Assembly: GCA_007693585.1 (NCBI GenBank)
Contig: REDH01000016.1
Location: 1 to 64,000, forward strand
Length of the DNA stretch: 64,000 nt
Source of the DNA: Deltaproteobacteria bacterium
GTDB lineage: Bacteria > Myxococcota_A > Bradymonadia > REDH01
Direction: 5' to 3'
Position 1 is the stretch's first letter, and each line of letters opens with the position of its first letter. Below, piece by piece: positions 42,252 to 46,172 of the stretch. The position numbers were made by a program, and so were the translations under genes. The notes below the pieces were generated by a model. The model searched no databases, had not been told where the DNA came from, and saw only the letters and a program-made list of their open reading frames with translations.

Positions 42252-42433
42252 GGTCTCGGGGCCTCGGGTGCGGAGAGGAGCAGGCCCCCGGGGAGTTGCG
42301 TGGCGGACTGCCCGTGAGCACCAGCGAGGTGACACATCGCGTGTCCGCGCGCAACGGCGTCGTCCGCCGCCGTCTGCCCGCAGCGGAGATGTTCCGCGAC
42401 GAACAAGGTGAACTACGGGGGTTCTGGCGTCCG

Positions 42434-43129
42434 ATGAGCGCTTCCGCATCAGGAGAGAAACGACCGGTGCTCGCCCTGCCGCCAGGGACGACCGGTGCCG
42501 AGACGGAAGTGCCGGGTTCCGCGGACGCCGGCGTTCGGGAGAGCGGTGCGTTGATGGAGCCGGCCGGGGAGGGCAGGGGTGCGGAGCCCACTCCCCCGGG
42601 GGGGAAGCCGGCGGTGGAGGCGGGAGAGGGCGAGGACGAAGCGTCCGGGTTCGCGCGGGTACATGGTTCGGCGGCCCGGAGGGGCGAGGAAGGCGGGGGG
42701 GCGCTCGCGCTGGGATCGGTCTTCGACCTGCCGGCGCGGACCGGGAGAGCCGGGCCCGAGGTGCACGTGCGAGGACGTGCGGCGCCGGGAGGAGATGGAG
42801 CGGTCACGGTCCATGTGCCCGGACGGGTGGAGGACGCGGACGGGCGCATCCACGGGGCTGACGCGCTGGATCTCGACGGCCCGGAACGGTGGACGGTGCA
42901 TCTGGATGCTCCGCTCGAGCGGCCGGTTCGACTGCGCCTTCGGCGGCGCGGGTTGCCAGGGCCGGGCGGAGACCGCGGGGACGTGATCCTGGATGTGGTG
43001 CCCGACGCGAGCATCGTGCCGGTGGTCGCGGGCGCGCGGACCCGCTGGCCGGTGCCGGTGAGCATCGCAGTCGCCGTGGCGCTGGCCGTACTGGTGCTGA
43101 TCGCCCGCGTGGCGGGCTGCCCCGGCTGA
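42434..43129 (+). CDS. Tail-anchored protein of unknown function
   Basis: The start is uncertain: ATG 42434 is the first after a stretch of less GC-rich, promoter-like DNA; GTG 42314 would add 40 residues. From 42434 the 231-residue protein is Gly/Ala/Glu-rich and disordered up to about 110, then a small beta-rich domain (VHVRGRAAPGGDGAVTVHVPGRVEDADGRIHGADALDL), then one C-terminal membrane helix (VSIAVAVALAVLVLIARVAGC). The layout recalls the protein at 21455, but no family is recognised. A hairpin (43140-43163) follows. Confidence 0.55.
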   Translation: MSASASGEKRPVLALPPGTTGAETEVPGSADAGVRESGALMEPAGEGRGAEPTPPGGKPAVEAGEGEDEASGFARVHGSAARRGEEGGGALALGSVFDLPARTGRAGPEVHVRGRAAPGGDGAVTVHVPGRVEDADGRIHGADALDLDGPERWTVHLDAPLERPVRLRLRRRGLPGPGGDRGDVILDVVPDASIVPVVAGARTRWPVPVSIAVAVALAVLVLIARVAGCPG

Positions 43130-43171: not shown

Positions 43172-43234
43172 GCTCCGTCGTGGCGCCGGTTCAGGACGAT
43201 GACGCTGCCGATGTCGGGACGGCTGCCGCTCGCG
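43172..43234 (-). repeat. Duplicate of the adjacent lipoprotein gene's 3' end
   Basis: These 63 bases copy 43253-43315 (last 20 codons plus stop of the minus-strand lipoprotein gene) at an offset of 81, with 7 mismatches. Read on the minus strand the copy gives GSRPDIGSVIVLNRRHDG against GSRPDIDSVVLLNWRRD-stop; the stop codon TGA has become GGA. The copy stays in frame with the gene. Confidence 0.85.
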
Positions 43235-43254
43235 AAGTCCGCGCGCGCACCCGC

Positions 43255-45465
43255 TCAGTCGCGGCGCCAGTTCAGGAGGACGACGCTGTCGATGTCGGGG
43301 CGGCTGCCGCTCGCGTGGTCGGCCACGATGCGGATGAACCTCGCCTCCGGGAGCCCGACCCGTGCGAGGTCGAAGCGGTCTCCGCCCGCGGCGGGGTGAC
43401 CGAGGCCGATGCCGTTGCCGGCAGGGTTGGCCCACGTCGGCTCGATGCCCACGAAGCCCTCCACGAAGCGGCGCACATCCGTGGCGAATCCGCCCGCATG
43501 GGCGCCGAACTCGAACGCTTCGTCCTCGACGGTGTCGAATGCGAACCACGTCTCGCCATCGGACGAGAGTTCCACCCGGGCGGGGTCGACCGCGCGGATC
43601 ATGGGATCTCCGCCGAGGAAGAGCACGTTCTCGAAGATCACGAGGTCGTCGCCGGGGCCGTCGACGAGGGCGACCCCGACCAGCTCGATGGTCATGGCCT
43701 CGCCGGCGGGCACGGTCGTCAGCTCCTCGCTGCTGAAGTTCGGGGCGAAGGCTCCACCGCCGGCCGGGGGACCGAACAGGTTTCGGGGATCCATGAAGCC
43801 GGTCCCGACCGCCGGGTGAAAGACGCGGGCGAGGTCCCCGGTGAGAGCGAGTGGAGGACGTGCGGGCGCAAGACGTGCGAGAAGCTGGGCGCCGAGGCCG
43901 GAGCCGCCCGGGGCCAGCTCGGTGAACTGGGTGACCTCGGTGATCTCGGAATCCTCGAGATCGGCCCACGTGAACACCCAGAGGCCGTCGGTGTTGAAGG
44001 ATGTGGCGTAGAGAAGCCCGTCCTCTCCGAGCAGCAGGCTGGCCGCGTTGTAGCTGGTGGCCTCGGTGCCGACCAGCGCGAGCGGGGCCGTGTCGATGTC
44101 CCGCACGACGACGCCGTCCTCCAGGTCGATCAGGCCCACCGTCGCGCTGCCGTCGGTCCCGGAGTAGGCGACGCGGTTGTGGAAGGCGTCCCAGGCGACG
44201 GAGTTGAGGGCCCCGGCCGGGAGGCTCACGGTCACCTCGAACTCGAGGGTGCGCAGATCGAGGACCGTGACCGCGCCAGGCACGTCGGCGTAGTTGCCGG
44301 TGCAGGCCACGAGAAGGCGCCGCCCCGCGAGGTGCAGATCCGACGGATTGAGGCACGCCTCGGGCAGGGCCAGCCATGGGTCGGGCGAGGGATCGGAGCC
44401 ACTTCCGGAGGGATCCTCGTTGGCCGAACCCTGCCCCGGGAACCCGGCGAACAGCGTCTCCTCCGCACCCGTCACGTCGAGGAAGAAGAGGACCGCAGGG
44501 GACTGGGCCACGAAGCTGTCGAGGGTGCTGTTGGCCACGATCATCCAGGGGCCCCACGTGGCTGCGGCGCTTCCGGCGCTGAGGGAAACAGACACACTCC
44601 AGTCGCCGGCGTCGGCGAAGGCCTCGACCTCGACCGCGGCGGCCGCGTCGGGATCCACCCGGTAGACCGAGTTGCCGGCTCCGACGAGCCAGAGCTCGTC
44701 GGCCGCACGAACCGCCACGTCGTAGGCGCCGGCCGGAGCAATGTCCTCAAGGAAGGTGATCGGTTCGAGGGTCACGGGGTCGAAGATCAGCAGCGCGCTG
44801 TCCGCAGTACCGCCGAAGGCGTCCCCGCTGAAGACGGCGTAGCCCGTGCCGTCGATGATGCGCAGCCGGGCCGGGATCTGGCCGACCGGGAGCGCATCGA
44901 TGGGTGCAGCGGACTCCAGCTGCGAACTGACCCCGTGGAAGCCGCTCGTCAGCGTGGACACGACGAGAAGATCGTCGCCGACGAAGACGTCGATCCCGGT
45001 CTCGAGGACGCCGGCGCCGGGGACCTCGGCGGTGGCGCGCACTGTCGTGGTACCGGGCCCCGCGGCCACGATTCGTCCGCCGTCCGTTGTCGCCACCGCC
45101 GGGTCATCGGAGGCGAGCGTGAAGGTGTCGACGGAGGCGTCGGATTCCACGCCTGTCCGGATCCGCAGCAGGACATCGTGGTCCTCACCCGGCCCGCCGA
45201 AGGAGACGCTGTCCTCGACCGGGAAGAGGGTGGTTCGCCGCGCCGGAGGCTCGTAGAGGTCGGCCTCCGTCGTGGTGGGCGGGGTGTCCGTGGTGGGCGG
45301 AGTGTCCGTGGTGGACACCTCGCCGGTCGGCGGCGCTTCACCGGACGTGCTCCCGACGCTGGTGTCATGGTCGGCATCGTCGCCGCACGCGGCGAGGGCC
45401 GCGGCGAGGATGAGCAGCAGGGCCAGCAGGCTGGCGTGGCGGGGGTGGCGGTGCGGGTCGTGCAT
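43255..45465 (-). CDS. Cobalamin-riboswitch-controlled beta-propeller-like lipoprotein
   Basis: ATG 45465 opens a lipoprotein signal (LLALLLILAAALAACGDD). The 736-residue protein then has a Thr/Pro linker, a bacterial Ig-like domain (~85-160; DDPAVATTDGGRIVAAGPGTTTVRATAEV), a long stretch of propeller-like blades (~165-520; for example GTGYAVFSGDAFGG, ADELWLVGAGNSVYRVDP, NRVAYSGTDGSATVGLIDL, GLLYATSFNTDGLWVF) and a C-terminal beta domain (GDDLVIFENVLFLGG, VELSSDGETWFAF). A cobalamin riboswitch (45626-45810) lies 160 bases upstream. BtuG of Bacteroides is a surface propeller lipoprotein that binds vitamin B12, so a B12-capture role is a fair guess, but no TonB receptor gene is next to it. Confidence 0.75.
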   Translation of the reverse strand: MHDPHRHPRHASLLALLLILAAALAACGDDADHDTSVGSTSGEAPPTGEVSTTDTPPTTDTPPTTTEADLYEPPARRTTLFPVEDSVSFGGPGEDHDVLLRIRTGVESDASVDTFTLASDDPAVATTDGGRIVAAGPGTTTVRATAEVPGAGVLETGIDVFVGDDLLVVSTLTSGFHGVSSQLESAAPIDALPVGQIPARLRIIDGTGYAVFSGDAFGGTADSALLIFDPVTLEPITFLEDIAPAGAYDVAVRAADELWLVGAGNSVYRVDPDAAAAVEVEAFADAGDWSVSVSLSAGSAAATWGPWMIVANSTLDSFVAQSPAVLFFLDVTGAEETLFAGFPGQGSANEDPSGSGSDPSPDPWLALPEACLNPSDLHLAGRRLLVACTGNYADVPGAVTVLDLRTLEFEVTVSLPAGALNSVAWDAFHNRVAYSGTDGSATVGLIDLEDGVVVRDIDTAPLALVGTEATSYNAASLLLGEDGLLYATSFNTDGLWVFTWADLEDSEITEVTQFTELAPGGSGLGAQLLARLAPARPPLALTGDLARVFHPAVGTGFMDPRNLFGPPAGGGAFAPNFSSEELTTVPAGEAMTIELVGVALVDGPGDDLVIFENVLFLGGDPMIRAVDPARVELSSDGETWFAFDTVEDEAFEFGAHAGGFATDVRRFVEGFVGIEPTWANPAGNGIGLGHPAAGGDRFDLARVGLPEARFIRIVADHASGSRPDIDSVVLLNWRRD

Positions 45466-45625
45466 GGTGTGCTCCGTTCTCGTGTCCCGAGAGAAGGGGG
45501 GCGGGAAGGCGGGCACTGCGCGACGCATGCGACACCGGGCTGGACGCGGAGTCCCACCCTGACGATGGCGCTGGTCGTTCCTGGCCGTGTTCCCGGGGCC
45601 GAACGATGCCGGTCGATGGACCGGA

Positions 45626-45810
45626 GTCGAAGCCGGTCTCCTGACTCAAGGCCTGACGCGGGAGCGTGGCCCGGTGCGCCTTCCCACCTCGTCCGCTCGG
45701 GGAGGCAGTGGCATGATGCGCCGGGCTTTCGGCCTTATACAGTGGCGGGTCCGTGCCGGATTCTCACCGGCTTCCCTGTGCCTCCGGACCTTCCGGTGGC
45801 ACGCTTCGAC
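45626..45810 (-). promoter_or_regulatory. Cobalamin (vitamin B12) riboswitch
   Basis: Read on the minus strand, the region has the conserved aptamer parts in order: AAGGTCCGGAGG, AGGGAAGCCGGTGAGAATCC, GGCACGGACCCGCCACTGTA, GAAAGCCCGGCGCAT with TGCCACTG, GGGAAGGC, and the 3' end GAGTCAGGAGACCGG. The closing P1 stem is perfect: GTCGAAGC (complement of 45803-45810) pairs with GCTTCGAC (complement of 45626-45633). Next comes a hairpin CCGGTC-CATC-GACCGG (45609-45624). The aptamer's own GACCGG can instead pair with that CCGGTC, undoing P1, so two exclusive folds are visible. B12 binding normally lowers expression of the gene behind it, here the lipoprotein at 43255-45465. Confidence 0.93.
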
Positions 45811-46172
45811 GGCGGGGGCGTATCGTGCCGGGTCGGCGCGGTCAAGCGGGAGCATGCCGAGCGCACCGGTTTGGCGGGGTGAACGCGAGGTCCGGGATGC
45901 AATCCGGCGTGGCACCGATCGGCGGTTCGCATGGGCCGCAACGGCGTGCATCATTGTGGTCCACGACGATGATTCCCCCACCGGGAGGGGTTCGGTGGTG
46001 ACTTTGCGGCAGCCCGGTCCAGTTTCGGCGGGTGCGGCGCTGTGCGAAGCGGGGGTGCGCGTTGCGCGGGGGCACGGCGCGGTTTAGAGTCCGCGGGCAG
46101 CGCCCGGCGCGGAACCGGTTCCGTGCCGGGTGACCGGAGCATGCCGGACGACAGGAGCGAGGAAGGACACCG
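45811..46172. other. Divergent promoter region
   Basis: This gap lies between the riboswitch leader (minus) and the acyl-CoA dehydrogenase gene (plus) and must hold both promoters. It contains an imperfect palindrome at 45950-45973, with arms ATCAT/ATGAT around GTGG-T-CCAC, which could be a regulator site. A lower-GC stretch lies around 45880-45980. No gene is supported. Confidence 0.5.

Follow-up and report, generated by a model that had tools for sequence, protein, structure and literature searches.

A cobalamin riboswitch precedes a multidomain lipoprotein gene

The DNA analyzed here, which we call the window, is a stretch of 64,000 nt from Deltaproteobacteria bacterium (Myxococcota_A; Bradymonadia; REDH01; assembly GCA_007693585.1, contig REDH01000016.1, positions 1–64,000). 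On its minus strand, a cobalamin riboswitch aptamer lies upstream of a gene for a lipoprotein, which we refer to as P0001. The features of the locus are as follows.

45614..45823, minus strand: complete cobalamin riboswitch aptamer, RF00174 (cmscan, model 1–189)
45466..45613, minus strand: leader from aptamer to start codon, the start codon lying 149 nt downstream of the aptamer
43255..45465, minus strand: lipoprotein gene, 736 aa (P0001; open reading frame; the same riboswitch also heads syntenic orthologues in genomes G004 and G001)
45385..45465, minus strand: lipoprotein signal peptide with lipobox LAAC, residues 1–27 (sequence)
45256..45384, minus strand: Ser/Thr/Pro-rich linker, residues 28–70 (sequence)
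44980..45240, minus strand: Ig-like domain, residues ~76–162, with weak Big_2 similarity (Pfam below cut-off; strands in the model)
43936..44979, minus strand: beta-propeller-like region, residues ~163–510 (predicted model, Foldseek)
43258..43893, minus strand: C-terminal beta-sandwich, residues 525–736, LIC_13355-type with a CBM32/F5-8C-like fold (NF033170, model, Foldseek)

A first-pass annotation, made from the sequence alone, had described a complete cobalamin aptamer ahead of the gene, and this was borne out. The RF00174 match (E 5e-20) spans the full model from 1 to 189 with a score of 86.8 bits, the gathering score being 31.5, and is the sole Rfam RNA above its gathering score within the 64-kb window. 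The interval proposed at that stage begins correctly with the gene at 43255, but its end at 45810 clips 13 bases from the aptamer. In the leader (45466..45613), we detected neither an intrinsic-terminator-like site nor convincing sequestration of the ribosome site, and its predicted fold was no more stable than those of shuffled sequences.

Translation of P0001 is assigned to the ATG at 45465, which has GGAG in front of it and at which the signal peptide begins; an alternative ATG at 45528 (757-aa frame) is disfavored since both of these features go with the ATG at 45465. The signal peptide reads MHDPHRHPRHASLLALLLILAAALAAC, ends in LAAC and is followed by GDD, in agreement with the lipobox noted earlier. 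The neighboring genes encode a GDPD protein, an acyl-CoA dehydrogenase, an acyltransferase and TamB, no transport gene is among them, and the window contains no receptor gene. An imperfect 71-bp direct repeat (86%) occupies 43172–43242 and 43253–43323: just 3' of the lipoprotein stop codon, the DNA repeats the sequence coding for the C-terminus, which looks like a duplication of the end of the gene. A 277-aa open frame on the plus strand (42296–43129), convergent with the lipoprotein gene, has no Pfam match.

The predicted fold of P0001 most resembles BtuG1

We modeled P0001 from residue 71 onward (pLDDT 66.7, with only three sequences covering the propeller) and compared the mature-protein model with solved structures using Foldseek. 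The best PDB match was 8blw_B, Bacteroides thetaiotaomicron BtuG1 (E 1.1e-11), the next being roughly a thousandfold worse (E 1.1e-8), and the matches below BtuG1 comprised YncE and other propellers. The alignment with 8blw_B extends over 742 columns at a low TM-score (0.35) and 11% identity, from a query model of modest confidence. The structure prediction and BtuG comparison suggested in the first-pass annotation thus returned a propeller-type fold with BtuG1 at the top. Its propeller claim fits the predicted fold, which mostly matches propellers, but gains nothing from sequence, as the region has neither a Pfam match nor a PDB sequence match. Likewise, the proposed Ig-like domain has its strands in the model, whereas its Big_2 similarity covers only residues 108–148 at a sub-threshold E of 0.12. 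The C-terminal beta domain was also predicted correctly: modeled alone (pLDDT 85), it has CBM32/F5-8C sandwiches as its nearest solved folds, with low TM-scores. CBM32 came first, and neither BtuH nor BtuJ was among the 50 matches listed.

BtuG1, since renamed BtuGH, joins a propeller to a BtuH domain, and both domains bind cobalamin (PMC10404256, PMC12751083). Because this is its best fold match, the layout of P0001 is, as modeled, BtuGH-like; the remark that it is larger than that of BtuG does not stand, since BtuG1 itself combines a propeller with a BtuH domain. P0001 and BtuGH (BT_1490) are both lipoproteins with a propeller and a C-terminal beta domain, both are under a cobalamin riboswitch, and P0001 would share the surface location of BtuGH. 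They differ in that no sequence similarity between them was detected, that P0001 adds an N-terminal Ig-like domain and ends in a domain of LIC_13355 type, and that BtuGH is encoded inside a btu operon, whereas the P0001 gene is away from a receptor gene. As for the independent evolution suggested in the first-pass annotation, the likeness in fold is compatible with convergence and with distant descent alike.

Sequence searches did not connect P0001 to known B12 binders. They revealed no homology with BtuG, BtuH or DUF4465, and neither P0001 nor the other Myxococcota propellers examined matched PF16819 (DUF5074, BtuG), which sets them apart from BtuG2 and BtuG3, propeller lipoproteins that likewise belong to a B12-uptake context. 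Profiles A1, A2 and A3, of which A1 is an alignment of 32 sequences of the C-terminal domain, found no Btu or other B12-binding protein among PDB sequences up to E 10; phmmer against PDB sequences found no known B12 binder, and Pfam scans of single copies and of sets of 32 and 50 members found neither a known B12 binder nor DUF4465. Matches to Drosophila Spineless (E 0.37) and PA2218 (E 0.77) were taken as chance. BtuJ1 and BtuJ2 carry DUF4465 (IPR027828), a B12-binding domain of jelly-roll type found in lipoproteins under cobalamin riboswitches (PMC13398666, PMC12751083), and P0001 may resemble them in binding as well. DUF4465 members are known from Myxococcota (PMC13398666, PMC12751083). However, no LIC_13355-type member matches Pfam DUF4465, and neither the window domain nor the family alignment shows the reported GTPAYF/NTPAY loop motif.

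The C-terminal domain recurs under cobalamin riboswitches across Myxococcota

When relatives were searched with whole P0001, mostly its last ~185 residues were matched, in stand-alone open reading frames of ~230–430 aa. Full-length orthologues turned up only in the same family, namely G004 and G001 (the latter split over contigs C159 and C124), and both have the same riboswitch above and a GDPD gene downstream. The A1 alignment shows a signature pattern of VFEN, VSxDGxxW and GGDxFDL. All 32 of its members match NF033170, the LIC_13355 family lipoprotein model (best E 1.5e-39). The window domain resembles this Leptospira family in matching the profile (E 6.7e-7; 28.8 bits over partial profile 65–157), but it is fused to a propeller and falls short of the curated cut-off of 120 bits, while some Myxococcota relatives reach 186 bits. 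No A1 member had a convincing Pfam family, and the A1 profile found no solved structure by sequence. The profile detects the domain in 178 of the 284 Myxococcota genomes, almost always in a single copy. Fusion to a propeller occurs in two separately supported clades, f1 (the family of the window) and f2; many forks of the domain tree are unresolved, so it only suggests how many times fusion took place.

We inspected the surroundings of 73 copies: 19 relatives picked by protein similarity when their riboswitch positions were not yet known, and 54 from a phylum list, for which some riboswitch positions had already been seen at the time of choice. With a riboswitch counted if on the same strand and ≤4.5 kb upstream, 12 of the 19 relatives and 46 of all 73 copies have one; the remaining 27 have none at the gathering score in the stretch inspected. 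For lists 1 and 2 together, a riboswitch was present at 23 of 40 loci, where ~0.02 would be expected if genomes carry roughly 1.6 riboswitches each. Of the 73 copies, 23 have a TonB receptor no more than 4 kb away, 20 have a propeller near or fused to them, and 53 have a riboswitch or a TonB receptor. At three loci (L003, L056, L153) the order is riboswitch, domain lipoprotein, TonB receptor, propeller; at three others it is TonB receptor, propeller, domain (L101 and L116, both under a riboswitch, and L006). Because of these complete arrays, there is little doubt that the LIC_13355-type domain belongs to B12 acquisition or a co-regulated process. The first-pass view of a lone gene therefore fails at the level of the phylum, where the domain recurs under cobalamin riboswitches and often stands beside TonB receptors and propeller lipoproteins.

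A linked domain family and the Leptospira proteins

A second domain, of LIC13354 type, is near or fused at 25 of the 73 loci, either as a gene between the riboswitch and the LIC_13355-type gene or as an N-terminal fusion. Six examples scanned match NF047669 (LIC13354 family exoprotein), all below threshold (E 0.016 to 1e-11), and comparison of the domain with the PDB gave chance matches only. It is ~105 aa long and occurs in one to three tandem copies (L114 2319–3731, L147 2508–3812, L119, L124, L141 and 20 other loci). The Leptospira genes LIC13354 and LIC13355 have consecutive locus numbers and are up 3.8- and 3.7-fold, respectively, in host-adapted cells (PMC3953431); together with the Myxococcota loci, the consecutive numbers indicate that the pair recurs in two phyla. 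The two cobalamin riboswitches reported in Leptospira lie upstream of btuB and LIC20135, not of LIC13354/LIC13355 (PMC3953431).

Laminin and plasminogen are reported ligands of Leptospira LIC_13355 (PMC11891782). This report, along with the CBM32/F5-8C-like fold of the domain, is what one would expect if P0001 were regulated by B12 without binding it, its propeller and CBM32-like domain attaching instead to glycans or to a host or prey surface, with B12 as an ecological cue. We consider this quite unlikely given the tight phylum-wide linkage of the domain to cobalamin riboswitches and TonB receptors. Moreover, the LIC_13355 binding assays were done on protein that had been insoluble and was refolded, and B12 was not among the reported tests (PMC11891782).

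B12 genes elsewhere in the genome

The first-pass annotation had proposed searching the genome for further riboswitches and TonB receptors. The assembly (223 contigs, 97.7% complete) contains two RF00174 riboswitches, the window copy and one at C153:38007–38238 on the minus strand. The latter is directly ahead of a TonB receptor gene (PF00593 and PF07715; about C153:35815–37950, minus strand), which is followed by a gene for a propeller-like lipoprotein of ~400 aa. The earlier statement that no BtuB or transport gene is adjacent is correct locally, but the genome does hold a riboswitch–receptor–propeller operon on contig C153. Three genomes from the same family, G001, G003 and G005, have this order too, and in G002 a riboswitch and receptor lie at a contig end. 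The TonB receptors give only weak, sub-threshold matches to the B12-receptor model. Homology between the window and C153 propellers was considered but is not claimed: hhalign found only a 39-column stretch (E 0.011, probability 3.8%), centered on a common NP...LLV..G.Y motif.

P0001 is not encoded beside BtuB, as BtuG is, and the C153 receptor gene already has a propeller gene next to it, so the C153 lipoprotein is the likelier positional counterpart of BtuG. This arrangement would also suit a surface cobamide binder outside any receptor lid, namely a scavenger of BtuJ type, free-standing or carried on vesicles, whose cargo reaches the receptor indirectly; B. thetaiotaomicron BtuJ proteins act on vesicles (PMC12751083), and the P0001 gene has no receptor gene adjacent to it. 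In other Myxococcota, however, the domain gene directly adjoins TonB receptors, and we regard such a scavenger as unlikely.

The genome further encodes a permease and an ATPase of BtuCD type, a pair interrupted at the start of contig C27, and six B12-binding-domain proteins above cut-off. CbiC is a marker of de novo synthesis, and it was not found in this genome. As this is a single marker in a 97.7% complete draft, we conclude only that the organism is likely a B12 auxotroph. In the close relative G002, a cobalamin riboswitch is followed by cobU-btuR-btuC-btuD-btuF-cobT (L138 1499–7021; genes read from translations of open reading frames), an operon that combines corrinoid salvage with inner-membrane transport. 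The salvage genes cobU, btuR and cobT in this riboswitch operon, and the finding that many cobalamin riboswitches answer to several corrinoids (PMC9600662), would accord with a ligand other than cobalamin, such as cobinamide or a particular cobamide. We think this very improbable; in all other respects it would leave the reading developed below unchanged.

A proposed model for P0001 in cobamide capture

Because its tail domain recurs under the cobalamin riboswitch across the phylum, P0001 probably belongs to a hitherto undescribed system for scavenging B12. Our preferred reading, to which we assign a probability of roughly 0.68, is that P0001 is a BtuGH-like surface lipoprotein that captures cobamides and acts with a BtuB-like receptor encoded elsewhere. 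The idea of a BtuG-like B12 catcher is thus retained in the form of a riboswitch-controlled propeller lipoprotein whose nearest fold is BtuG1, but without a PF16819 match, detected sequence homology or adjacency to BtuB.

The model is patterned on B. thetaiotaomicron BtuGH. In that species, B12 almost completely silences the btu promoters that carry cobalamin riboswitches (PMC12751083), and BtuG lids catch B12 and hand it to BtuB (PMC10404256). By analogy, the window riboswitch would be ON at low B12, allowing the lipoprotein to be made, and presumably OFF when B12 is present. P0001 would then be exported and lipidated, reaching the outer membrane and probably becoming surface-exposed, where a cobamide would probably be captured by the propeller, the C-terminal LIC_13355-type domain or both. 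Its cargo would then be handed over to the TonB-dependent, BtuB-like receptor encoded on C153, perhaps via the C153 propeller lipoprotein, with TonB-driven uptake leading on to BtuCD.

Earlier work regarded lipoprotein-capped TonB transporters as seemingly restricted to Bacteroidetes (PMC10404256). A comparable layout, consisting of a lipoprotein with a propeller and a beta domain, a BtuB-like receptor and a cobalamin riboswitch, is seen across Myxococcota, which hints at a broader origin or spread of surface-lipoprotein-based B12 scavenging than has been assumed. The literature we searched, which covered few subscription journals, contained no account of propeller-assisted B12 uptake in Myxococcota and no link between LIC_13355 or LIC13354 and B12, and the LIC_13355-type domain family carries no B12 annotation in Pfam or NCBIfam. 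A broader proposal, which we put forward tentatively and at somewhat under even odds, is that Myxococcota have their own phylum-wide cobamide-capture system, in which domains of LIC_13355 and LIC13354 type, standing alone or joined to propellers, serve BtuB-like receptors; that LIC_13355 is a B12-binding family not recognized until now; and that Leptospira LIC_13354/LIC_13355, studied as adhesins or vaccine candidates, are a cobamide-acquisition pair. Both families would thereby gain a testable function, including the Leptospira proteins, which up to now have been investigated for host adhesion and whose genes may merit re-reading as cobamide-acquisition genes.

Finally, the loci vary in setting and architecture. 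In one group (L050, L052, L053, L054 and L057), a riboswitch–LIC13354–LIC13355 block lies near a tRNA gene cluster and the small SRP RNA in a conserved neighborhood. A deeply separate branch of the domain (tree branch 1.88; L126–L128 and L151–L153, families f17, f31, f33 and f44) is also found under cobalamin riboswitches and near TonB receptors, and some of its members have a C-terminal hydrophobic tail resembling PEP-CTERM-type sorting signals.
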